A stretch of DNA of 64,000 bases from Actinotalea alkalitolerans (GTDB taxonomy: Bacteria > Actinomycetota > Actinomycetes > Actinomycetales > Cellulomonadaceae). The first letter of the stretch is position 1; every line of letters starts with the position of its first letter. A program made the translations under genes and the position numbers. The notes beneath the pieces are model-generated. The model was not told the origin of the DNA. It was given only the letters and a program-made list of their open reading frames with translations, and searched no databases. The DNA is taken from NCBI RefSeq assembly GCF_023369855.1, contig NZ_JAMBPP010000001.1, forward strand, positions 124,001 through 188,000, read 5' to 3'. Of the stretch, positions 456 through 13,603 are shown one piece after another.

Positions 456-959
456 TCACAGGACGTCGGGCTCGGAGTCCTCGACGGGGCGCTCGGCGCC
501 CGTCAGGATCCGGACCAGGTGGTAGACGGTGTAGAGGGCGATGAGCACGCCCGAGATCGGCAGCGCGAGGTACAGCGGGCCGACGTTGACCGGTAGACCG
601 GTGAGGTTCTGGGCCCAGGCCAGCTGGACGACCAGGTAGCCACCCCAGATCAGCACCAGGCCGGTGAAGGTCAGGATGGCGAGCTGCACGATGACCGAGA
701 AGACGGTCTGCGCGGCCCGTGGGAGCTTGCGGACGGCGATCTCGACCGCGATGTGGCCGCGTTCGCCGAAGACGAGCGCCGCCCCGAAGAGGCCCAACCA
801 GATGAACAGGTACTTGGCGAGCTCCTCGGACCAGCCGCTGGGCTGGTTGAGGACCTGCCGGGCGAACACCTGCCACGCGACGTCGACCACGAGGGCTGCG
901 AACAGCACCACGCAGAACCACGTCAGCACACGATCGAGCACGTTCTTTGCTGTGGTCAT
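456..959 (-). CDS. dctQ: TRAP transporter small permease, DctQ family
   Basis: The small membrane subunit of the TRAP transporter, 167 residues, a normal length for DctQ. Four hydrophobic segments are visible at about residues 13–33, 48–65, 85–108 and 126–148, with the family-typical W(S)EELAKYLFIWLG motif after the first segment. It lies between the solute-binding protein gene (28-nt gap to its stop) and dctM (14-nt gap), so the three are almost certainly co-transcribed. DctQ is known to pair with DctM in the membrane. The C-terminal tail is short and acidic. Confidence 0.93.
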   Translation of the reverse strand: MTTAKNVLDRVLTWFCVVLFAALVVDVAWQVFARQVLNQPSGWSEELAKYLFIWLGLFGAALVFGERGHIAVEIAVRKLPRAAQTVFSVIVQLAILTFTGLVLIWGGYLVVQLAWAQNLTGLPVNVGPLYLALPISGVLIALYTVYHLVRILTGAERPVEDSEPDVL

Positions 960-986
960 GTCGGACCTCTTCGGGACGGGCAGCCG

Positions 987-2048
987 TTACTCGGCTGCGG
1001 CGCGGACCTGGTCGTAGATACCGCGGGTGACGTCGTTCGAGAGCTTCTGCTCGGTCAGCGGGGCGATGACCGCGGCGAAGGCCTCGGCGTCGACCTCGTT
1101 GAACATGGCGCCCTCGGCCTCGGCGGCGTCCTTGGCCGCGCTGACCTGCTCGGTCCACAGCTCGGCCTCGTGGACGCGGGCCTCGGCGAGGAGCTCGGCG
1201 AAGATCTCCTGGTGCTCGGCCGACATGGCGTCGTAGATCGCCGGGTTGATGATCAGGTAGTCCGGGAACATCAGGTGACGCGTGTAGCTGTAGTACGGGG
1301 CGACCTCGTGCTGCTTCAGGTTGTAGAAGATCAGCTCGTTGTTCTCGCCGCCCTCGAGCAGGCCGGACTGGATGGCGGTGTAGACCTCACCCTGACCCAT
1401 CGGGGTCCCGGTGCCGCCCATGAGGCTCATCATCTCGATGTTGGTGTCCGACTCGATGACGCGGATCTTCATGCTCGCGAGGTCCGCGGGGGTGTTGATC
1501 GGCTTGACCGAGTTGTAGACGTTCCGGACGCCGCCGTGGAAGGCGCTGAGCACCTTGATGTTCTGCCCCTCGAGGGACGAGTACAGCTCGGTGGTGATGT
1601 CGGGGTCGTTGGTGACCTGGCTCTGGTGCTCCGGGGAGTCGAAGACGAAGGGCAGGTTGAAGACCACGAAGTCCGGGTTGAAGTTCTCGAGCAGCGGGCC
1701 GCCGACGTAGGCCATCTCGATCGTGCCGGCCTGGAGGAGCTCGATCGTCTCGCGCTGGGCACCGAGCGTCTCGTTGGGGAAGACCTCGACGTCGTACGCG
1801 CCGTCGGTCGCCTCGAAGAGCTTGTCACCGAGCTCGTCCATGACGATGTACTGCGGGTGGGTCTCGGGCTGGTTGAACGCGACCTTCATGACGAGGGTGT
1901 CCGCGTTGGCCTCGGGGGCGGCAGCGGTCTCGCCGGCCTCGGGGGCGGTCTCGGGGGTGGTGGTGCCGGTTCCGGCGCTGCACGCTGTCAGTGCGAGCAG
2001 AGCCGCCCCGACCAGGGCGGTCATCGAAACTGCCTTGTTTCGCCTCAT
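987..2048 (-). CDS. dctP: TRAP transporter solute-binding lipoprotein, DctP family
   Basis: The extracytoplasmic binding protein that delivers solute to DctQM. The start chosen gives 353 residues: AAGGAG stands seven bases before this ATG, whereas an upstream ATG eight codons earlier has no such site. The N-terminus has a positively charged head, a hydrophobic stretch and the lipobox LTAC with Cys23, so it is a membrane-anchored lipoprotein. The DctP core includes KIRVIESDTNIEMMSLMGGT and a GEVYTAIQSGLLEGGENN segment typical of the ligand pocket. First gene of the dctPQM operon. The nearby dehydrogenases suggest a carboxylated sugar or hydroxy acid as substrate, but this is inference. Confidence 0.92.
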   Translation of the reverse strand: MRRNKAVSMTALVGAALLALTACSAGTGTTTPETAPEAGETAAAPEANADTLVMKVAFNQPETHPQYIVMDELGDKLFEATDGAYDVEVFPNETLGAQRETIELLQAGTIEMAYVGGPLLENFNPDFVVFNLPFVFDSPEHQSQVTNDPDITTELYSSLEGQNIKVLSAFHGGVRNVYNSVKPINTPADLASMKIRVIESDTNIEMMSLMGGTGTPMGQGEVYTAIQSGLLEGGENNELIFYNLKQHEVAPYYSYTRHLMFPDYLIINPAIYDAMSAEHQEIFAELLAEARVHEAELWTEQVSAAKDAAEAEGAMFNEVDAEAFAAVIAPLTEQKLSNDVTRGIYDQVRAAAE

Positions 2049-2188
2049 GCTGTTACTCCTTGGTTGGCTCACGGGTGAGCTCCCGTCACGTACCGGGGGG
2101 ATGCGGTGCGGGGCGACCCCGCGTGCTGGTGGACAACCGAACTACTGCGTCCTGGTCGAGCTGACCTCTTCGTCAGTGGTCCGTGGAT

Positions 2189-2213
2189 GGAACTAAGTTC
2201 CGACCTACGGAAC
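2189..2213. promoter_or_regulatory. Two overlapping palindromes in the dctP / DUF4862 divergent region
   Basis: GGAACT-A-AGTTCC (2189–2201) overlaps GTTCCG-ACCTA-CGGAAC (2197–2213). Both are perfect inverted repeats sharing GTTCC. They sit in the 295-nt region between the divergently transcribed dctP and the DUF4862 gene, where a shared repressor would control both units. TTCCG-type arms resemble operators of IclR-family regulators, but no regulator gene is adjacent. No convincing −10/−35 pair was recognised here. Confidence 0.5.
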
Positions 2214-2343
2214 ACTAGCCACCGTTGGCCCCGAACACAACGAGACCTTCGTCCCAGGGCAGGATCGAGACCGTATCGAGACGATGCGGGCACGACCCGA
2301 GCACGCCACCGTGCCCGGCGAGCCACCGAACAGCGGAGGAACC

Positions 2344-3312
2344 ATGACCATCCCGGCCCCGGACCAGCCCGGCGCACGTCTGCTGGGGGCCTACTCCATG
2401 GCCCCCGCCGACCCCGTCGCGGAGACCGAGCTCTACGACGGCGTGGCACGCCTCGGCGTCGCGGGTCTGGAGATGCCCCTGCCCCCCGAGGGCGCCCCGA
2501 GCCTCGAGCCCGGCTGGCTCGCCCGGAACCTCCGACCCGAGTGGGACCTGCTCCTGACCTGCATCCCCACCGTCATGTCCCGACTTGGCACCGACCCTGC
2601 GCACGGCCTGGCCTCGGCCGACGACGCCTCACGCCGCCGGGCCGTGGCGGACGTCGCCCGCGCCCGCGACCTCGCGCTGCACCTCGCCGACACCCACGGA
2701 CGACGACAGGTCACGGCGATCCAGGTGCACAGCGCACCCGGGCCCGACCTCGGCACCCGGGACGCGTTCGCCCGGTCCCTCGAGGAGATCCTCGGCTGGG
2801 ACACGGCAGGAGCCGAGTTCCTCGTCGAGCACTGCGACGCACTGGTCGACGGGCAGAGTGCCGCGAAGGGCTTCTGGACCCTCGAGGACGAGATCGCGAC
2901 GATCCGACGCGTCGCCGGTGACGCTCCCGCCGGCACAGCCCTGGGCGTGAGCATCAACTGGGGCCGCTCGGCGATCGAGGGACGCAGCGCCCAGACCGCC
3001 CTGGCCCACCTGGAGACCGCGGTCGAGGCCGGTCTGCTGCGCGCCCTCGTCCTGTCCGGGGCCAGCGACGTCGAGACGCCGTGGGGGCCGGCCTGGGGCG
3101 ACGCGCACATCCCGCCGCGGGGTCAGGACCCGGCCCTCGCCGCGTCGTCGGCCTCGCTCCTGGGACCTGACGAGGTGGCGGCGGCGCTGGACGTGGCCAC
3201 GCGCGGCGGGACCGATCCCCTGATCGCGGTCAAGGTCTCGGTCAGGCCGCGGGACGTGGACGTCGCGACGCGCCTCGCCGTGGCACGGGCCGCCCTCGAC
3301 CTCACCCGCTGA
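2344..3312 (+). CDS. DUF4862 family protein (TIM-barrel-like)
   Basis: A 322-residue protein recognised as DUF4862, a family of uncharacterised, probably TIM-barrel-type proteins found near sugar-acid catabolism genes in actinobacteria. The start ATG is preceded by GGAGGA at proper spacing; an in-frame start 20 codons upstream lacks this. Conserved-looking patches include GVAGLEMPLPP near residue 40, an AIQVHSAPG strand near 125, and LVEHCDAL near 160, compatible with an isomerase-like barrel carrying acidic and histidine ligands. It is divergent from the TRAP operon and converges on the D-2-hydroxyacid dehydrogenase gene. Enzymatic function is unknown. Confidence 0.75.
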   Translation: MTIPAPDQPGARLLGAYSMAPADPVAETELYDGVARLGVAGLEMPLPPEGAPSLEPGWLARNLRPEWDLLLTCIPTVMSRLGTDPAHGLASADDASRRRAVADVARARDLALHLADTHGRRQVTAIQVHSAPGPDLGTRDAFARSLEEILGWDTAGAEFLVEHCDALVDGQSAAKGFWTLEDEIATIRRVAGDAPAGTALGVSINWGRSAIEGRSAQTALAHLETAVEAGLLRALVLSGASDVETPWGPAWGDAHIPPRGQDPALAASSASLLGPDEVAAALDVATRGGTDPLIAVKVSVRPRDVDVATRLAVARAALDLTR

Positions 3313-3373
3313 GCCGACCGGTCCCGACCGTCAGGGGCCCGACGACCACCGGTCGCCCGCCACCGACAGGTGG

Positions 3374-4429
3374 TCAGGCCAGGTCATCGGGCCCCACGAC
3401 GTTGCGCAAGGTCTCACCGTCGAGCAGACGACGCGCGTTCTCAGCCGTGAGCTCGGCGATCCGACGATCCTCGAGGGGGTTCAGCGCGGCGGTGTGCGGG
3501 CTGATCAGCGCGTTGGGCAGCCCCCACAGCGGGCTCTCGGCGGGCAGCGGCTCGACCTCGGTGACATCCAGCGCGGCGAAGCCGACGGCGCCGTCCTGCA
3601 GGGCCCGCACCAGGGCGGGTTCGTCGATGACCGTGCCGCGACCGACGTTGACCACGGTGGCCCCGCGACGCAGCGCACCGAGCACCCGCTCCCCGACCAG
3701 CCCCTCGGTGGCCGGAGCCCCGGGCAGCGTCACCACGATCGCGTCGGCCTCGGGGGCGACCTCGGCGATCTGGTCGAGCCCCACGACCCGCTCGACACCC
3801 TCGACCTCGATCGCACTGCGGTTCGCCCCGATCACCCGGGCACCCACGGCCGTGAGCAGCTGGGCGGTCTGCCGTCCGATGTTGCCGAGGCCCACCACGA
3901 GCACGGTCTGCTGGTGCAGCTGGCCCATCGCCCAGCGCCCCGACCAGGTCCTGCTGCGCTGCTGATCGAGCAGTCGCGGCAGGGTCTTGGCGCCCGCGAG
4001 AAGACCGAAGAGCGCGAACTCCGCCAACGTCCCCGAGTGCACCCCGGCCGACGTCGTGAACGTCACCCGGTCCAGGTCCTGCGGCGCGAGCCCGGCCGCC
4101 CCCACCTGGGACGCCCCACCGGCGGCCATCGTCTGCACCCAGCGCAGCCGCGGGTTGGCCGCGACCGTGCGGGCCAGGGCGGCCGACGACACGTCCGGTA
4201 TGCCGTACAGGGCCTCGGCCGAGTCGACCAGCTCCTCGAACCGGGCCTGCTGCTCAGGGGTGCGCGACCACGACGGGTCGCCGCCGTGGTCCCCCGGGTG
4301 TCGCATGGGCGGGAGCAGCGAGTGGTCCCGGACCAGCTCGACGCGGGGCTCGAGCTCCTCGAACAGCACGCACAGCTCCTCCTCGAGGGGGGTGGCGAGC
4401 ACCATGCGCAACCGGTCCGTGCGACTCAT
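3374..4429 (-). CDS. D-isomer-specific 2-hydroxyacid dehydrogenase family protein
   Basis: A 351-residue NAD(P)-dependent oxidoreductase of the D-2-hydroxyacid dehydrogenase family. These enzymes interconvert 2-hydroxy acids and 2-oxo acids in the cytoplasm. The Rossmann motif VLVVGLGNIGRQTAQLL lies near residue 175. The catalytic Arg lies in NVGRGTVIDEPALVRAL (near 265), the Glu in DVTEVEPLPAESPLWGLPN and the His in ISPHTAALNP (near 312). A GAAGGGA site precedes the ATG. It is divergent from the beta-hydroxyacid dehydrogenase gene at 4543. Together they look like the oxidative arm of a hydroxy acid or sugar-acid pathway fed by the TRAP transporter. Exact substrate unknown. Confidence 0.88.
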   Translation of the reverse strand: MSRTDRLRMVLATPLEEELCVLFEELEPRVELVRDHSLLPPMRHPGDHGGDPSWSRTPEQQARFEELVDSAEALYGIPDVSSAALARTVAANPRLRWVQTMAAGGASQVGAAGLAPQDLDRVTFTTSAGVHSGTLAEFALFGLLAGAKTLPRLLDQQRSRTWSGRWAMGQLHQQTVLVVGLGNIGRQTAQLLTAVGARVIGANRSAIEVEGVERVVGLDQIAEVAPEADAIVVTLPGAPATEGLVGERVLGALRRGATVVNVGRGTVIDEPALVRALQDGAVGFAALDVTEVEPLPAESPLWGLPNALISPHTAALNPLEDRRIAELTAENARRLLDGETLRNVVGPDDLA

Positions 4430-4542
4430 CAGCTGATCCCTTCACCGCGCGATGCCACTCACCGCACCGGGCACCACCCCATCACGCGTCCCCCGCCTGC
4501 ACCAACCCACGGCCCCTGGGGGTGCTGGTTAGGCTGCCTGGC

Positions 4543-5460
4543 ATGGGTGAGCAGGCTGCGCAGGTCCGCACGGGGTCCGTCGGAGTGGTCGGGCTGGGGG
4601 TGATGGGAGCTCCGATGGCCGGTCACATCCAGCGAGCCGGGCACGAGGTCCACGTGACCGCACGCCGTCCCGCGGCTGCCCAGGCGCTGGTCGCGCAGGG
4701 CGCGGTGTGGCACGCCACCCCACGCGAGCTGGCCGCCGAGGTCGACGTCGTGGTGCTCATGGTCCCCGACCTGCCCGAGGTCGACGCGGTGCTCGACGGA
4801 CCCGACGGGCTGCTCGCCGGCGCCACGGGCCCACTGCTGCTCGTGATCAGCTCGACCGTCTCCCCCCAGGGCGTCCGGGCCCTGGACGCCCGGCTCCGTG
4901 CCGAGACCGGCGGCCGGGTCCGGGTGGTCGACGCACCGGTCAGCGGCGGGCAGGAGGGCGCCGAGGCCGGCACCCTGGCCGTCATGCTCGGCGGCTCCGA
5001 CGAGGACGTCGCCCTGGCCCTGCCGGTGCTCGCAGCCACCGGGACGGCCGTGCACCTCGGTCCCCTCGGCGCGGGTCAGGTCGCCAAGGCCTGCAACCAG
5101 ATGATCGTCGCCGCGACCGTGCTGGCCCTCGGGGAGGCCTCGGTGGTCGCCGAGCGGGCCGGGCTGGACGTCGGGGCGATGCTGGACCTCCTGGGTGGCG
5201 GGTACGCGGCCAGCCGCATCCTGGAGGTCAAGAAGGAGCGGTTCGCGACCCACGACCACAGCCCTTCAGGGGCAGCGCGCTTCATGGTCAAGGACCTGGG
5301 CTTCGCCACGGCCGAGGCGCGCCGCACGGGCACCCCGACCCCGCAGGCCGACGTCCTGCGCGCGGTCTTCACCGACCTCACCGAACGCGGCTTCGGCGAC
5401 CAGGACACCGCCGTCGTGCAGGCCTACCTCGAGTCGCTGGCGGCCCCGCCCGCACCCTGA
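4543..5460 (+). CDS. NAD(P)-dependent beta-hydroxyacid dehydrogenase (3-hydroxyisobutyrate / tartronate semialdehyde reductase family)
   Basis: A 305-residue enzyme of the family that includes 3-hydroxyisobutyrate dehydrogenase and 2-hydroxy-3-oxopropionate reductase. The N-terminal nucleotide site is VGVVGLGVMGAPMAGHI. The substrate motif is DAPVSGGQEGAEAGTLAVML (near residue 132), and the catalytic Lys is in GAGQVAKACNQMIV (near 183). The ATG is chosen because TTAGGCT ends seven bases upstream, a typical −10 for a leaderless transcript. A GTG seven codons upstream is less likely. Co-location with the TRAP system and the D-2-hydroxyacid dehydrogenase suggests hydroxy-acid catabolism. Confidence 0.88.
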   Translation: MGEQAAQVRTGSVGVVGLGVMGAPMAGHIQRAGHEVHVTARRPAAAQALVAQGAVWHATPRELAAEVDVVVLMVPDLPEVDAVLDGPDGLLAGATGPLLLVISSTVSPQGVRALDARLRAETGGRVRVVDAPVSGGQEGAEAGTLAVMLGGSDEDVALALPVLAATGTAVHLGPLGAGQVAKACNQMIVAATVLALGEASVVAERAGLDVGAMLDLLGGGYAASRILEVKKERFATHDHSPSGAARFMVKDLGFATAEARRTGTPTPQADVLRAVFTDLTERGFGDQDTAVVQAYLESLAAPPAP

Positions 5461-7223: not shown

Positions 7224-7838
7224 TCACCCATCCACGATCGTCCGGCCGAGGACGCGGTGGAGCAGGCGGGTGATCGGTCCGGCGGGCACCTCGGCCGGCC
7301 ACATCGGGACCGCGGCACCTGGTGGCACCAGTGCGGACAGGACCGCCGTGCGCACGTCGTCCGGGTCGATCCCCATCGCGTCCAGCAGTCGCGGCACGCG
7401 CGCGGAGGGCTCGAGCACCCCGAGCCACAGGACCGCGCTGCTCACCTTGCCCTCGTTCGGCACGGCGCGGGTGCGGCGAAGGTGACCCCACTTCACCGTC
7501 GCCCGGTTCAGTGCCGCCTGCAGCTCGGGCGTGTGCTTGGTGCGCGGTCGCGTCCCGCTCCCCTCGCGCTCGGCGGGCACGGTGACCGCCGGGTCGTGAG
7601 CGGTCAGCCCGAGCCGAGCCAGGTGCGGGGCGTCGTCCACCGCCCCGAGCACCGCGTCACGCACCGACGCCGTCGTGAGACCAGGGAAGGCTCGCACCAC
7701 CTTCTGCGTCAGCTCGTCGTCGGACGCCAGCAGCCCGAGCAGCACGTGCTCGGAGCCGTAGGCGTGCGCCCCCAGGGCCGTGGCCTCGTTCGTCGTCGCC
7801 GTCATCACCGCGACGAAAGACTCGTCATACATCAGCAT
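7224..7838 (-). CDS. Clp R-domain (ClpA/ClpC N-terminal repeat) protein without ATPase
   Basis: A 204-residue protein made of two Clp R-type repeats and no AAA+ module. Repeat 1 (about residues 5–80) shows NEATALGAHAYGSEHVLLGLLA, very like the ClpC N-domain motif [15 protein letters not shown]. Repeat 2 (about 95–175) begins HTPELQAALNRATVKWGH. Clp N-domains bind substrates or adaptors; free-standing ones may modulate ClpC, but that is inference. Its start overlaps the end of the upstream small HTH gene by 14 nt, and a second in-frame ATG two codons later is also possible, so translation is probably coupled. The pair forms an operon controlled from 8067. Confidence 0.85.
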   Translation of the reverse strand: MLMYDESFVAVMTATTNEATALGAHAYGSEHVLLGLLASDDELTQKVVRAFPGLTTASVRDAVLGAVDDAPHLARLGLTAHDPAVTVPAEREGSGTRPRTKHTPELQAALNRATVKWGHLRRTRAVPNEGKVSSAVLWLGVLEPSARVPRLLDAMGIDPDDVRTAVLSALVPPGAAVPMWPAEVPAGPITRLLHRVLGRTIVDG

Positions 7839-8067
7839 GGTTGCCCCATCTCCGTGGTCCGCGTGGGTGGCTGTGCTTCTTGTGCACCGTCTGGCGCGTG
7901 ACCTGGAGCTCGACGGCGATGTCCGCCCACGACATCCCCCGCTCCCGCGCCCGGGCGACGTGCAGGTCCTCCAACCTGTCCGCCAGGCGGTGCAGAGCGA
8001 CGACCGTCCGTAGCCCGTCCCGGGGGTCAGCCGTCGAAGCCGCCGCTTCCACCGTTGTGAGATCCAT
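7825..8067 (-). CDS. Small HTH DNA-binding protein paired with the Clp-N protein
   Basis: An 80-residue protein with a C-terminal helix-turn-helix, ISWADIA-type: GMSWADIAVELQVTRQTVHKK at about residues 44–64, followed by a basic tail. The ATG at 8067 is preferred over a longer reading from 8214. A good promoter (TTGACA, 17-nt spacer, CAGGCT) ends seven bases before it, giving a leaderless mRNA, and two operator-like repeats overlay that promoter. The arrangement suggests autoregulation of the HTH/Clp-N operon. Pairs of this kind occur in other actinobacteria, but I know of no established function. Confidence 0.8.
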   Translation of the reverse strand: MDLTTVEAAASTADPRDGLRTVVALHRLADRLEDLHVARARERGMSWADIAVELQVTRQTVHKKHSHPRGPRRWGNHADV

Positions 8068-8070
8068 GGG

Positions 8071-8115
8071 TGTCAGCCTGGTCTGACAATCGTCTGGTGT
8101 CAACCCAGTCTGACA
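8071..8115 (-). promoter_or_regulatory. Promoter of the HTH/Clp-N operon with duplicated TGTCA-N8-TGACA operator
   Basis: On the minus strand, TTGACA (8103–8098), 17 nt, CAGGCT (8080–8075), then seven bases to the ATG. Two inverted repeats TGTCA-N8-TGACA lie at 8098–8115 and 8071–8088, 27 bp apart; one covers the −35 and the other the −10. This is the layout of a repressed promoter. The likely ligand is the HTH protein encoded immediately downstream. Confidence 0.75.
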
Positions 8116-8224
8116 ACGAACCCTCACCGACAGAGGGTCGAAGCCGGTCTCGAGCGGTGGGGTGAAGAGCGCAGCGGGGGCGTCGAGCGGCCCTTCCTGC
8201 AGCACGGCCACCACGCCACGCCAG

Positions 8225-8258
8225 TGAGCGCTCTCTCAGCATCAGAGATCGCTCTCTG
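8225..8258. promoter_or_regulatory. LacI-type palindromes upstream of the GH16 glucanase gene
   Basis: CAGAGA-TCGC-TCTCTG (8243–8258) is a palindrome with perfect 6-bp arms. TGAGCGCTCTCTCA (8225–8238) is an imperfect relative containing GAGCGCTC. Both resemble the CG-centred operators bound by LacI/CebR-type sugar regulators in actinobacteria. They lie about 100–135 bp before the GTG of the glucanase gene. A possible −10, CATACT, is at 8289–8294. Confidence 0.5.
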
Positions 8259-8359
8259 AGACCGGTTCCATTGCCCGGCGATCGGGGGCATACTGCGCAT
8301 GTCCGACCCTCCGGGCCCGCGCAACGTCGCGCGGCAGACGACTCCAAAGGCGGAGAAGC

Positions 8360-11300
8360 GTGAGAAGAAGCAGGTCGATCGCGGCGGGGCTGGTCCCCGT
8401 CACAGCACTCTCGGTGGGACTCGCGATGCCGGCATCGGCCGCGACCGTCTCGATCCTCGCCGACTTCGAGGGGTCCTCGGATGCCCCGGACGGCTTCTAC
8501 GCCTACCAGGGTGGCGGAGGCGGCGCCGGCTTCGGCGTCGAGACCATCGCCGACGGCGACCCCCTGGCCCTGGACGGCCAGGTCGGCGACAACAACGTCC
8601 TCTCCGTCGGCGCGGACGTCCCGGCCGGCGCCTACGCCGGGTTCGGCGAGAACTTCGCCTCGGCAGTGGACGCCAGCGCGTTCGACGGGTTCCAGTTCTG
8701 GATGTACGGCACCGGCAGCGGCGCCGTCCTGCAGTCGGAGCTCCTCGATGGCGCCGCAGCGACCGCCACGGACTCGGACACCTCGGAGCGGTTCGACTAC
8801 CAGTTCACGGACGACTGGACGGGCTGGAAGCTCATCCAGATCCCGTTCACGGCCTACCAGGTCGCCAGTGACCACAACCCGGCGCCTGATAACGGGGTCC
8901 TCGACCTCACCGAGCTGTACGGCATCATCTTCCCCGTCGTGTCGACGCCCGGGCCGGTGACCTGGAAGTTCGACGAGCTCGCCTGGTTCAGCGGCGCCGA
9001 CATCGCGCCGAAGGTCGGCTTCGCCACCCCGGCGAGCAGTGTCACCGAGGGCGGCACCGTCACGGTGACCGTCCGACTCGACATCGCCTCGGACACGGCA
9101 GTCACTGCTGACTGGGCGACGGCGGACGGCACCGCGACCGCAGGCGAGGACTACACGGCCGCGACCGGGACCGTGACGTTCGAACCGGACGTCACGACCG
9201 CGACCATCGAGGTCGCGACCACCCAGGACGCCATCGTCGAGGGCAACGAGACCTTCACGCTGACGCTCTCCGACGTGGCCGGCGCCGATCTCGGCACCTC
9301 CACGCACACCGTGACCATCCGCGACGACGACGCCGCCGAGGCGGAGCCGGTGTGGGACAACGTGCGTCTCGTCGAGGGCTTCGACACCCCGGGCGCGCTG
9401 CCGGTCACGGAGGACGGCGTCACCGCCGGCCACGAGTTCTTCGCCGACCCGACCGCCACCGTGTCCGGGGCTGTGGAGCTTCCGCCGACGCCGGCGCCGG
9501 GCGACGACGCCGGCGACACGACGCTGCGTCTGACGATGACGGCGCCGTCCTACGCAGGCGTCACGCAGAAGCTCGGTGACCCGGGAGGCGCCTGGACCCC
9601 GCAGGACTGGAGCCGCTTCGACGGCTTGTCCTTCTGGTTCCACGGCACCAACAGCGGCAGGTCCCTCTTCATCGACCTGCTGGACAACCGCAACCCCGGG
9701 TCGACGACCGACGACGCGGAGCGCTACAGCGTGGTGTTCACGGACGACTCGACCGGGTGGCGCTACGTCGAGCTGCCGTTCAGCACCTTCACCCGCAAGG
9801 ACGTCGGCAACGGGGCGCCCAACGACGGTCTCAACCTCTCGGCCGTCCACGGCTGGGCGATCGGCGCGACCGCCGTCCCGACCGAGACCACCTGGTACCT
9901 CGAGGACATCTCGCTCACCGTCCCTGAGACGGTGATCGACGAGTACGAGCACGCCGACGGCCTGCCGTCCGGCACGGACGCCGACGGCCTGGGTCTCGGC
10001 TTCCAGCCCTACTCCGGCAACGGCGGCGCCGTGGTCGCGGACGTCGTCACCGACGGTCGGACGGCTGCGCGACCGGGCGCTGAGGACGGCAACAGCGCCC
10101 TCGGCCTCACGCTCGACGTCCCGGCGGGCACCTGGGCCGGCATCTCGCACGCGTTCTCTTCCGACGGCGTCTGGACGCCGCAGGACTGGAGCGGTTCGCA
10201 GGGCGTCAACTTCTGGCTGTACGGCCAGAGCACGGGGAACGTCGTCTACGTCGACGTCGTCGAGAACCGCGCGGAGGGCTCGACCACCGACGACGCCGAG
10301 CGGTACAGCGCGTCGATCACGGACGACATCGCCGGGTGGCGTTTCGTCGAGCTGTCGTGGGACGACTTCGCGCGCAAGGACATCGGCAACGGTGCCCCGA
10401 ACGACGGGTTCACGCTGGACGAGGTCCACGGCTACGCGATCGGTGTCGCGCAGACCGACGGGCCGACCGAGTACCTCGTCGACCGCTTCGCGCGGTGGGG
10501 TGCGAGCCTGGCCGACGTCCCGCTGCTCGTGGGCTTCGACCGCGGTGTCTACCAAGGCACCGAGGGCGGGACGGCGACGGTGACGGTCGCTCTCGCACGC
10601 GCGTCCGACGAGACCGTGACGGTGGACTACGCCACGCTCGAGGGCACGGACCGGACCCAGACCGAGGCCGTCCCCACGGTCGCCGGTCGCGACTACACGC
10701 CGGTGAGCGGCACCCTGACGTTCGCCCCGGGCGAGACCGAGAAGACCTTCTCGGTGGAGCTCCTGGACGACGACAAGTTCGAGCTCACGAAGAACATCCA
10801 GCTCGCGCTCGCGGGCACGACCGGCGCCGACCTCAGCCCGTTCGCGCGGTACGCGAGCATCGCGATCGAGGACGACGACCCGCGTGACCCGAACCTCATC
10901 GAGGACTTCGAGACGCATCCGGGGCTCTGGCGGACCACCGGTGCCGGACTCCAGGACATCCGCGTCCTCACGGGCGACGCGAACGCCTACCCGGGGCAGG
11001 CCGCCGACGAGGGCGTGGGCGAGGTCACGATCACGGGTGGTGGCGCCGAGGTGCGCCGGGACTTCGCGCAGGCGCAGGACTGGTCGCGCGGCGAGGCGCT
11101 GAGCTTCTGGTACCGCGGCACCGGCAGCGGTGAGCCCGTCACGGTGTCCCTGCGCGACGACGCGGCCCCTGACCCTGGTCCCGCCGGCTGGACGAGCACC
11201 GTGTACCTCGACGACTTCGACGCCCCGGCAGGCACCCCGGTGAACCCGGACTCGTGGTCGAACGAGACCGGCGGCTGGGGCTGGGGCAACCAGGAGTCGC

Positions 11301-12439
11301 AGTTCTACACGCCGGGCTCGCAGAACGTGTGGCAGGACGGCGAGGGCAACCTCGAGATCCAGCTCCGCGAGAGCACCGACGAGACGCTGTGGTGCTCGGC
11401 GAGCAACGTGCCGTGCGGCTACACCTCCGCCCGCATCGCCACCATGGACAAGGAGGAGTTCCTGTACGGCCGCATGGAGGCGCGTCTCAAGGTCCCGTCG
11501 GGCGAAGGCCTCTGGCCCGCGTTCTGGACGCTGGGCAACGACTTCCTCGAGGTCGGATGGCCGCAGACCGGCGAGATCGACATCATGGAGCACGTCGAGG
11601 GTGACAACGGTCAGCCGAACGAGGCGTTCGGCACGATCCACGGCCCCGGCTACTCCGGTGGGGCGTCGATCGACGGCAGGGTCTACCTGCCGGAGGGAGA
11701 GTCCTTCGCGGACGACTTCCACACGTTCACCGTGGAGTGGGAGCCGGGCCGCATCACCTGGTTCCTGGACGGCGACCAGTACCACCAGGTGACCCCTGCG
11801 GATCTCCCCGGTGACTCCGAGTGGGTCTTCGACCACCCGTTCTTCCTCATCCTCAACCTGGCCATCGGCGGCAACTTCGGCGGCACCATCGAGGAAGGGC
11901 TCGAGCTGCCCGCGTCGTACCTGATCGACTACGTCAAGGTCGAGCAGGCCCCCGACACCGCCGAGCGGTTCGAGGCGAGCTTCGTGGACAGCACCGAGGG
12001 ATGGCGTCAGGTCGCGGTGCCGTTCAGCTCGTTCACCCGGTCCGCCGACCAGCCGGCCGGCGCACCCGACAACGGCCTCACGCTGACCACGGTCAACGGG
12101 TTCGGGCTGACCTTCGACGAGTCGGTCACGAGCGGCACGGTGCTGCTCGACCAGATCCGGCTCGGGGGCGTACCCGGGGTCGACCCCGAGGACCCCTCAA
12201 CGCCACCCCCGGGTACGCCCGGGACCGGCGCGCCGGGAACCGGCGCTCCCGGGACGGGCGGCTCTGCCGCCGGCGGCTCCGCCGCCGGTGACCGTGGAGT
12301 CCTCGGCGCCACCGGAGCCAACCTCGTGGCCGCCCTGATCGCCCTGGCCCTCCTGGCGACCGGCGGACTCCTGGTGGCCCAGGCTCGACAGCGCCGGTTG
12401 GACGAGGCGGTTCCGGGTGAGGTGCCGCTGGATCTCTGA
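8360..12439 (+). CDS. Secreted, wall-anchored multidomain beta-glucanase (GH16) with CBM11-like and Calx-beta modules
   Basis: A 1359-residue extracellular enzyme. In order: signal peptide (1–27, ends ASA); CBM11-like beta-sandwich (about 30–212); Calx-beta (216–324); CBM11-like (335–520); CBM11-like (525–713); Calx-beta (720–842); a fourth CBM11-like module split into 846–944 and about 1199–1290; and, inserted in that split, a GH16 domain (about 946–1196). GH16 catalytic residues are in EIDIME, with E1072 nucleophile, D1074 and acid/base E1077, as in endo-beta-1,3-glucanases (laminarinases). The C-terminus has a PGT/GA linker, an LGATG sorting motif (1315–1319), a hydrophobic span and an RQRR tail, so it is probably sortase-anchored. 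The start is GTG after AAAGG. The likely role is attack on laminarin-like or mixed-linked glucans, possibly under LacI-type control. Confidence 0.9.
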   Translation: MRRSRSIAAGLVPVTALSVGLAMPASAATVSILADFEGSSDAPDGFYAYQGGGGGAGFGVETIADGDPLALDGQVGDNNVLSVGADVPAGAYAGFGENFASAVDASAFDGFQFWMYGTGSGAVLQSELLDGAAATATDSDTSERFDYQFTDDWTGWKLIQIPFTAYQVASDHNPAPDNGVLDLTELYGIIFPVVSTPGPVTWKFDELAWFSGADIAPKVGFATPASSVTEGGTVTVTVRLDIASDTAVTADWATADGTATAGEDYTAATGTVTFEPDVTTATIEVATTQDAIVEGNETFTLTLSDVAGADLGTSTHTVTIRDDDAAEAEPVWDNVRLVEGFDTPGALPVTEDGVTAGHEFFADPTATVSGAVELPPTPAPGDDAGDTTLRLTMTAPSYAGVTQKLGDPGGAWTPQDWSRFDGLSFWFHGTNSGRSLFIDLLDNRNPGSTTDDAERYSVVFTDDSTGWRYVELPFSTFTRKDVGNGAPNDGLNLSAVHGWAIGATAVPTETTWYLEDISLTVPETVIDEYEHADGLPSGTDADGLGLGFQPYSGNGGAVVADVVTDGRTAARPGAEDGNSALGLTLDVPAGTWAGISHAFSSDGVWTPQDWSGSQGVNFWLYGQSTGNVVYVDVVENRAEGSTTDDAERYSASITDDIAGWRFVELSWDDFARKDIGNGAPNDGFTLDEVHGYAIGVAQTDGPTEYLVDRFARWGASLADVPLLVGFDRGVYQGTEGGTATVTVALARASDETVTVDYATLEGTDRTQTEAVPTVAGRDYTPVSGTLTFAPGETEKTFSVELLDDDKFELTKNIQLALAGTTGADLSPFARYASIAIEDDDPRDPNLIEDFETHPGLWRTTGAGLQDIRVLTGDANAYPGQAADEGVGEVTITGGGAEVRRDFAQAQDWSRGEALSFWYRGTGSGEPVTVSLRDDAAPDPGPAGWTSTVYLDDFDAPAGTPVNPDSWSNETGGWGWGNQESQFYTPGSQNVWQDGEGNLEIQLRESTDETLWCSASNVPCGYTSARIATMDKEEFLYGRMEARLKVPSGEGLWPAFWTLGNDFLEVGWPQTGEIDIMEHVEGDNGQPNEAFGTIHGPGYSGGASIDGRVYLPEGESFADDFHTFTVEWEPGRITWFLDGDQYHQVTPADLPGDSEWVFDHPFFLILNLAIGGNFGGTIEEGLELPASYLIDYVKVEQAPDTAERFEASFVDSTEGWRQVAVPFSSFTRSADQPAGAPDNGLTLTTVNGFGLTFDESVTSGTVLLDQIRLGGVPGVDPEDPSTPPPGTPGTGAPGTGAPGTGGSAAGGSAAGDRGVLGATGANLVAALIALALLATGGLLVAQARQRRLDEAVPGEVPLDL

Positions 12440-12477
12440 CCCGCATCGCCACGGGCCCCGCCACCCGACCCGACGAC

Positions 12478-12525
12478 CACGGAACCCCGTGCCGACGTCC
12501 TCGACGTACGGCACGGGGTTCCGTG
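12478..12525. terminator. Strong hairpin terminator between convergent genes
   Basis: A perfect 17-bp stem: CACGGAACCCCGTGCCG (12478–12494) pairs with CGGCACGGGGTTCCGTG (12509–12525), and the 14-nt loop can pair further through ACGT/ACGT. It lies between the ends of the GH16 gene and the convergent membrane protein gene and can serve both. No long T-tract follows, as is usual for high-GC genomes. Confidence 0.85.
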
Positions 12526-12544
12526 CCGCCGGGGCAGACCCCGG

Positions 12545-13480
12545 TCAGCGCATGCGGCGGGGGGCGGGCCTCCTGTCGCGCCGTGGCACGTCCGGCCCGA
12601 ACGGCGGGTAGTCGTCAGGAAGGTAGGTGGGAAGGAGCGCGGCGAGGTCGAGCACCAGGTCCGCCATCAGCTCGACGCGGGCGAGATCGGTGGGCCCCGG
12701 AGCGTGCACCACGACGTCGCGCTCCTCGACCAGCAGCCGCAGGCCCGGCAGGTCCGCGCGGGCGAGCCGCTCGAGGAGGCGTGGGCTCAGGACGTCGTGG
12801 GCGAAGCGTGCGTCGGCGCACCGGATCCGCCACCGCTCGTTGACGTCGTAGGACTCGACCGTCAGGTCCTGGCCCCCCACGGCCCGTGCGACGCGATCCA
12901 GGAAGGTCATCGGCGTCACGGTCAGGGAGGGGAACCGCCGTGGACCGACGACCATCACCGCGTGCCTGCTCGACCAGTCGGCCAACCCTGAACCGATGGT
13001 CGACGAGGCGACCTCGCCCCGCGCGTCAGCACGTCGGAGCACGTCGGTCGCATGCGCGGAGAAGGGGATCCCCCGGGCACTCCAGCGGCTGGACAGCAGG
13101 CTCGAGCGGCGCTGGTAGTCCCAGCCATGGGCGCCGGCCCACTGCCGGGTCCGGGCGCGACGGCGACGGTTCCGCCGGCTGACGGCCACGCCCGCGGCGA
13201 CCGCCGTCACGCCCAGCACGATCGCGATCGCCAGGACGTCGGGGTCGTCCGCGCGAACGCCCTGACCGGGAGCGTGCCGGGCGGTCACCAGCACGGCGAG
13301 CAGGGCGACGACGAAGCACCCCAGCACGAAGAGCCCGGCCAGCCCCAGCCATCCCAGCACGAGCACCACCATCAGACCGAGCGCCCGTCCTCGCGAGAGC
13401 GTGCGCTCGCGGACGCTGCGCCTCAGACCCGTCAGGAGGTCGAGCCCCCACGGTGCGGGCTCACCAGCCTGTCCGGTCAC
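12545..13480 (-). CDS. Membrane protein of unknown function (two TM segments, soluble C-terminal domain)
   Basis: A 311-residue protein not assigned with confidence. It has two hydrophobic stretches (about 33–68 and 83–102), a basic RRNRRRRARTRQW segment, then a soluble region of about 190 residues beginning AGAHGWDYQRRSS. The WDY-type opening followed by R-G-I-P-F and W-R-I/R segments recalls DUF3137-like domains, but I am not certain. Start GTG preceded by a weak GGTGAGGG site. Convergent with the GH16 gene across a strong terminator and upstream of nothing obvious; probably monocistronic. Confidence 0.6.
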   Translation of the reverse strand: MTGQAGEPAPWGLDLLTGLRRSVRERTLSRGRALGLMVVLVLGWLGLAGLFVLGCFVVALLAVLVTARHAPGQGVRADDPDVLAIAIVLGVTAVAAGVAVSRRNRRRRARTRQWAGAHGWDYQRRSSLLSSRWSARGIPFSAHATDVLRRADARGEVASSTIGSGLADWSSRHAVMVVGPRRFPSLTVTPMTFLDRVARAVGGQDLTVESYDVNERWRIRCADARFAHDVLSPRLLERLARADLPGLRLLVEERDVVVHAPGPTDLARVELMADLVLDLAALLPTYLPDDYPPFGPDVPRRDRRPAPRRMR

Positions 13481-13603
13481 CCCTCACCCATCGGCACGCG
13501 GTCGCCGCTCCCCAAGGGGAAGAGCTGCCGAGATCCCCGGCGGGACGTTCGCGGTGCCGGCCTGCGCTCGACGGCGCTGGAACGCCTCCACGCCATGACG
13601 CAC

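Follow-up and report, generated by a model that had tools for sequence, protein, structure and literature searches.

Nested carbohydrate-active enzymes

A solved case of a catalytic domain lying inside the beta-sandwich of a carbohydrate-binding module (CBM) is BoPDA, a polysaccharide deacetylase of Bacteroides ovatus, whose crystal structure has a CE4 domain within a host module made of residues 63–85 and 381–441; the enzyme is a lipoprotein tied to capsule synthesis, and its nesting is called unique to it (PMC11713874). GH10/CBM4 xylanases such as Pm25/Xyn10C and SusG with its CBM58 are nested too, but in reverse, with the CBM within the catalytic domain (PMC7848910). The CBM20 of TgLaforin is split in sequence by inserts for which mostly disordered structure is predicted, acts as one module, and retains glucan binding (PMC9254107). 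Here, we analyzed a window of 64,000 nucleotides from Actinotalea alkalitolerans (contig NZ_JAMBPP010000001.1, positions 124,001 to 188,000), and in it one gene whose product appears to hold a GH16 catalytic domain within a split CBM11-like module.

The domains of carbohydrate-active enzymes are usually viewed as a linear string of beads, and the present case appears in domain tables as CBM11 pieces flanking GH16. Like BoPDA, the window protein has its catalytic domain within a CBM sandwich, with host halves on both sides; since BoPDA has been solved, a catalytic domain in such a position is of a known kind. The two differ in the catalytic domain, CE4 versus GH16, and in the evidence, a solved structure for BoPDA versus homology and prediction for the window protein. 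The host resembles the CBM20 of TgLaforin in that a CBM split in sequence would act as one, whereas the split is due here to a catalytic domain. The literature searched, most subscription papers being outside its scope, yielded no report of a GH16 domain within a CBM11-like module, of its occurrence in two phyla, or of the second insertion site described below.

A GH16 domain between two halves of a CBM11-like module

The gene occupies the whole open reading frame at 8360..12439 of the window (plus strand, as for all features below), starts with GTG, and encodes 1359 amino acids. The Pfam scan of the protein yields five stretches of CBM_11, two of Calx-beta, and one of GH16, with 195.2 bits for CBM_11 over the whole protein (cut-off 27). 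A first-pass annotation of the sequence had proposed three intact CBM11-like modules and a fourth broken around GH16, and this was confirmed. Intact modules 1, 2, and 3 lie at residues 29–213 (8444..8998), 331–524 (9350..9931), and 525–713 (9932..10498); they were identified with Pfam and with module profile hidden Markov models (HMMs), and their Pfam CBM_11 scores are 64.7, 54.1, and 50.1 bits, each above the cut-off. The fourth, host module consists of an N-terminal half (residues 844–937; 10889..11170) and a C-terminal half (1197–1276; 11948..12187), both delimited by HMMs, Pfam, and AlphaFold, with the GH16 domain (945–1196; 11192..11947) between them. It is about 15–20 residues shorter than modules 2 and 3 near its N-terminus. 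The motif positions of the first-pass annotation hold to within ten residues (LSFWYRGT at 914, TAERFEAS at 1200), with VTVSLRDD spanning 927–934 and not placed at about 937; the LSFWFHGT-type motif that it had described across the modules is replaced by FQFWMYGT in module 1.

Two HMMs were built with the fourth module excluded, the first trained on window modules 1–3 only and the second on 35 intact modules from other genomes. With the first, the N-terminal half matches at residues 868–937 (profile positions 40–117, 29.0 bits) and the C-terminal half at 1193–1266 (positions 116–188, 48.5 bits), while the joined halves yield a single match of 92.9 bits. The second gives profile positions 32–107 (32.9 bits) and 104–175 (52.7 bits), and 107.5 bits for the joined halves. 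Among shuffled controls, 1000 per half, the best scores were 6.1–6.2 bits for the C-terminal half and 9.0–10.7 bits for the N-terminal one. Pfam CBM_11 is split likewise, into 52–119 (21.2 bits, below the 27-bit cut-off) and 109–179 (36.3 bits, above it). The parts before and after the insertion had been supposed to complement each other, and the complementary ranges on the intact-module profiles bear this out; the homology of the later part to modules 1–3, which was to be checked, is present in the 48.5-bit match.

When the N-terminal half is included in the AlphaFold prediction, model residues 361–430 have block-mean values of the predicted local distance difference test (pLDDT) of 84, 82, 88, 77, 79, 67, and 70, and the C-terminal half forms five strands. 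When it is left out, the values for residues 261–330 (365–434 of the full model) are 38, 35, 37, 34, 40, 45, and 42, and two short strands are seen; the pLDDT of GH16 holds at 87–98. Because the predicted C-terminal half collapses without the N-terminal half while GH16 persists, the halves are supported, by homology and by modelling, as one discontinuous domain. The first-pass view of GH16 as inserted in one beta-sandwich, rather than joined linearly, is backed by the profiles, by the predictions with and without the N-terminal half, and by conservation.

Several points weigh against this conclusion. The prediction support consists of pLDDT and strands, and the comparison is that with versus without the N-terminal half. 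The alignment behind the model has only three nested sequences, the five models range from 67.0 to 80.6, and prediction is poor for the host's first 50 residues (pLDDT 54–60). Fold searches with the 440-residue model listed GH16 entries alone (over about 100–359 in one search), so that the host fold is unmatched in them. When intact modules were aligned together with the nested sequence, the modules were placed onto GH16 in two alignments, which were discarded.

The inserted domain scores 78 bits with the GH16 profile PF00722 (cut-off 22) and has the beta-jelly-roll fold of GH16. EIDIME at 1072–1077 fits ExDxxE, the GH16 catalytic motif (E1072, D1074, and E1077); it is invariant in two GH16 alignments (5/5 and 23/23 rows). 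The enzyme is predicted to be a GH16 laminarinase-type endo-glucanase. Subfamily GH16_3 is marked by WPA ... WXX ... WPX, a pattern that is largely conserved (PMC6827312); in the window GH16, examined by eye, WPA is present, the second element is WTL and the third WPQ, both outside the variants given there. The GH16 endo-beta-1,3-glucanases of PDB entries 2hyk and 3atg, with chains of 237 and 242 residues, comprise the catalytic domain only, unlike the window protein.

Spread and history of the nested arrangement

The same architecture, which the first-pass annotation had proposed to seek in other genomes, was found in 12 distinct proteins from two phyla, all with the same break: six from the genus, five from a second actinobacterial family, and one from a Chloroflexi metagenome-assembled genome (MAG). 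The nested unit occurs in 6/19 genomes of the genus, the window genome included, in 5/35 genomes of the second family, and in six of 396 genomes sampled across the phylum, each of the six already included in the former two counts. Among the best 80 of 581 relatives in the contig collection, two were recognised as nested: a contig of an Actinotalea MAG, apparently identical to genome G003, and the MAG HGW-Chloroflexi-6. Since drawn genomes and the best 80 of 581 relatives were covered, this spread is a lower bound; detection of the split form among these 80 also misses nested genes broken by a change of frame. CBM_11 is itself rare (10/396 phylum genomes), and six of these ten genomes carry the split form.

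In the 12 nested proteins (the window protein being L127 and that of G003 being L033), the first half stops at profile position 110–122 and the second begins at 104–108; the junction motifs DPGP before GH16 and D-x-A-[EQ]-R-F after it are present in all 12. Before its host, the Chloroflexi protein shares the set of parts of the window protein (CBM11-like modules, three in number, and two Calx-beta domains) in a slightly different order; SLH domains lie at its end.

Host halves were not seen by eye in L066 and L076, which lie near the nested GH16s in the tree, nor in L069, L084, L100, and L102, which have long tblastn ranges; in L123, GH16 extends beyond the point where the open frame stops. 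A long match to a GH16 on a Treponema plasmid proved to be a linear protein, with GH16 followed by CBM4_9. Of 279 plasmid records, four had matches that covered 80% or more of the Chloroflexi unit; one of these four, an Enterococcus record, has 26.5% identity, and its alignment stops at query residue 377. A 157 kb contig from a viral collection (L233, IMGVR_UViG_3300031595_000166) matches the GH16 region, with 45% identity to the Chloroflexi unit over residues 93–379.

In the CBM tree, the ten host modules included group together, apart from the 38 intact ones, in a single clade (support 100/98); the tree omits the hosts of G003 and G016, both included in the residue counts below, and intact modules were admitted at >130 profile positions and E < 1e-20. 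The GH16 tree holds, beside the nested rows, the 58 best-scoring non-nested loci from 132 loci with a usable GH16, and in it all 11 nested GH16s from actinobacteria fall into a single clade (99/95). The simplest reading is that GH16 was inserted once and the unit was then transferred or inherited over a long time. It is at odds with the Chloroflexi GH16 lying outside in the best tree and with the 12 nested GH16s coming together in 0% of 200 bootstrap trees; a single clade of all 12 is not rejected by the approximately unbiased test (p 0.362), and GH16 may possibly have been swapped later in the Chloroflexi line.

The host module: frame or binder

The CBM11 of Clostridium thermocellum Lic26A-Cel5E (CtCBM11; PDB 1v0a, 2lro) is matched by a profile of seven intact modules at E-values of 2.7e-6 to 3.1e-6. 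It is continuous, whereas the window host is split, and the hosts deviate from it at several cleft positions. On 1v0a, the insertion maps to the loop before EHWVYS, adjoining Asp99. Tyr53, Asp99, Arg126, Asp128, Tyr129, Asp146, and Tyr152 presumably line the CtCBM11 cleft; a list of CBM11 ligand residues was not found in the literature searched for it. Tyr151 of CtCBM11 is reported to sit in the cleft (PMC5686792).

We compared 38 intact and 12 host modules, the rows being related sequences and not independent samples. The aromatic residue of the aromatic-x-Gly motif is present in 38/38 intact modules and in 0/12 hosts, and its Gly in 38/38 versus 1/12. A basic residue at the position of CtCBM11 Arg126 is seen in 28/38 intact modules and none of the 12 hosts, with the MAFFT and HMMER alignments in agreement, and Asp at the position of Asp99 in 18/38 and 0/12, respectively. 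The fold positions Asp64, Trp113, and Asp163 are kept in all 12 hosts. By alignment, the hosts have diverged from the intact modules while their fold is kept. Because they lost the aromatic-x-Gly motif and the basic position while the fold residues stay, a role as frame seems somewhat likelier than one as binder; that the hosts have lost carbohydrate binding is, on the sequences, about as likely as not. The benefit suggested in the first-pass annotation, an active site fixed beside a binding face, is weakened by the loss of the motif and of the basic position.

Other observations count against a frame. The lost aromatic corresponds to CtCBM11 Tyr53 by MAFFT but to Tyr46 by HMMER, and since the two programs place it differently, the loss of the cleft is uncertain; the HMMER-aligned Tyr53 position is aromatic in 12/12 hosts and 23/38 intact modules. 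In addition, the intact modules themselves fit the CtCBM11 cleft partly, with Tyr152 in 0/38 and a gap at Tyr129 in 26/38.

On balance, we give about equal chances for and against the proposal that GH16 was inserted, probably once, into a CBM11-like sandwich, and that the host, folded from its two halves, is now mainly a rigid frame. The laminarinase-type GH16 would have entered a hairpin loop between two strands of the sandwich, probably in a single event, and the halves, judging from homology and prediction, would still fold as one domain. As a rigid frame, the sandwich would grip GH16 at both ends and connect it to the arm of Calx-beta and CBM11-like modules; any glucan binding would be the work of the three intact modules upstream. 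In some species, a sortase-like tail or SLH domains may hold the enzyme at the cell surface.

A possible, less probable alternative is that the host still works as a carbohydrate-binding module with an altered site, the nesting setting the GH16 cleft alongside, so that both would act on a single glucan chain running through them. The insertion loop next to the position of Asp99 (a presumed ligand residue), the Asp kept at the Asp128 position in 5/12 hosts, and the aromatic Tyr53 position of the HMMER alignment would suit it, against the absence from all 12 hosts of the motif aromatic and of the basic residue at Arg126. Neutral fixation is unlikely: the loop would have tolerated, with no benefit, a GH16 whose N- and C-termini are close, and the host would then have drifted as a linker. 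Circularly permuted GH16 glucanases exist in the PDB by their entry names, which fits neighbouring termini, and conserved positions are gone from the hosts; yet the arrangement occurs in two phyla, Asp64, Trp113, and Asp163 are unchanged in every host, and the junction motifs are kept. That the flanking parts are two separate small domains only resembling CBM11-like halves would agree with prediction evidence limited to pLDDT and strands, but is made very improbable by the complementary profile ranges and the collapse of the C-terminal half without the N-terminal one. An artefact of assembly or frame is contradicted, to the point of having next to no probability, by independent genomes that carry the nested frame open and stop-free: the window genome, five other genomes of the genus, five of the second family, and the Chloroflexi MAG.

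Read as a frame, the host may be a case of a binding domain converted to that role. Recurrent nesting with a drifted host also offers a natural test of whether a two-ended hold alters the action on solid glucans, and the host loops are natural insertion points, usable in enzyme engineering.

Second insertion site and possible cell-surface attachment

In G015, G427, and G418, a further domain, unnamed and about 100 residues long, interrupts the N-terminal half of the host. The Pfam scans of the three proteins, with coordinates for the best stretch only, assign it to no family, nor does the NCBIfam scan, made for the G015 protein (L037) only. The insert reads VTIDVKG... in L037 and L157 and has diverged in L161. 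The corresponding place in G436 is taken by three SLH domains, which are preceded by the start of the N-terminal half and followed by its end. It is conceivable, if doubtful, that the former binding module has become a frame with two sockets, site B taken by GH16 and site A empty or filled by the domain of about 100 residues or by three SLH domains, so that catalysis and wall attachment would be positioned by one rigid unit, and that this unit has moved between Actinomycetota and Chloroflexota.

The SLH-carrying host is that of L158 (G436:C494:1-4761; open reading frame 946-4761, minus strand). In the nested enzymes L157, L158, and L159 of the second family, the nested unit is followed by a right-handed beta-helix region, and L158 also has a choice-of-anchor Q domain.

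At the C-terminus of the window protein, LGATG (12302..12316) precedes a hydrophobic stretch and then a basic tail, noted by eye as a possible sortase signal; no anchor model matched this tail in the Pfam or NCBIfam scans of the protein. The window genome has three sortase matches above the cut-off. By eye, the C-terminus of the G008 protein is similar (LGATG, hydrophobic stretch, basic tail), while the proteins of G003, G012, and G016 are without such a tail.

Other features, surroundings, and linear relatives

Residues 1–28 (8360..8443) are a likely signal peptide, by eye from the sequence. Calx-beta domain 1 covers residues 214–324 (8999..9331; Pfam PF03160), and Calx-beta domain 2 about 725–819 (10532..10816; Pfam), the latter aligning over 725–819 with a sodium/calcium exchanger chain. 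The six neighbour genes encode an aldo/keto reductase, a SpoU methylase, a Clp_N protein, a protein without a Pfam match, a catalase, and a Fur regulator, and show no sign of a polysaccharide locus; nothing from Rfam matched in 7800-13600.

GH3 proteins with CBM11-like modules and Calx-beta are linear (L041, L042, L043, and L162 by Pfam; L231 by eye); L038–L040 have modules of the same kind as the CBM11-like ones of these GH3 proteins. The window genome itself encodes a linear protein (L230:1517-4876, plus strand) with CBM11-like modules and, by eye, a GH26-like domain, whose C-terminus resembles that of the window protein, with LGDTG ahead of a hydrophobic stretch and a basic tail.

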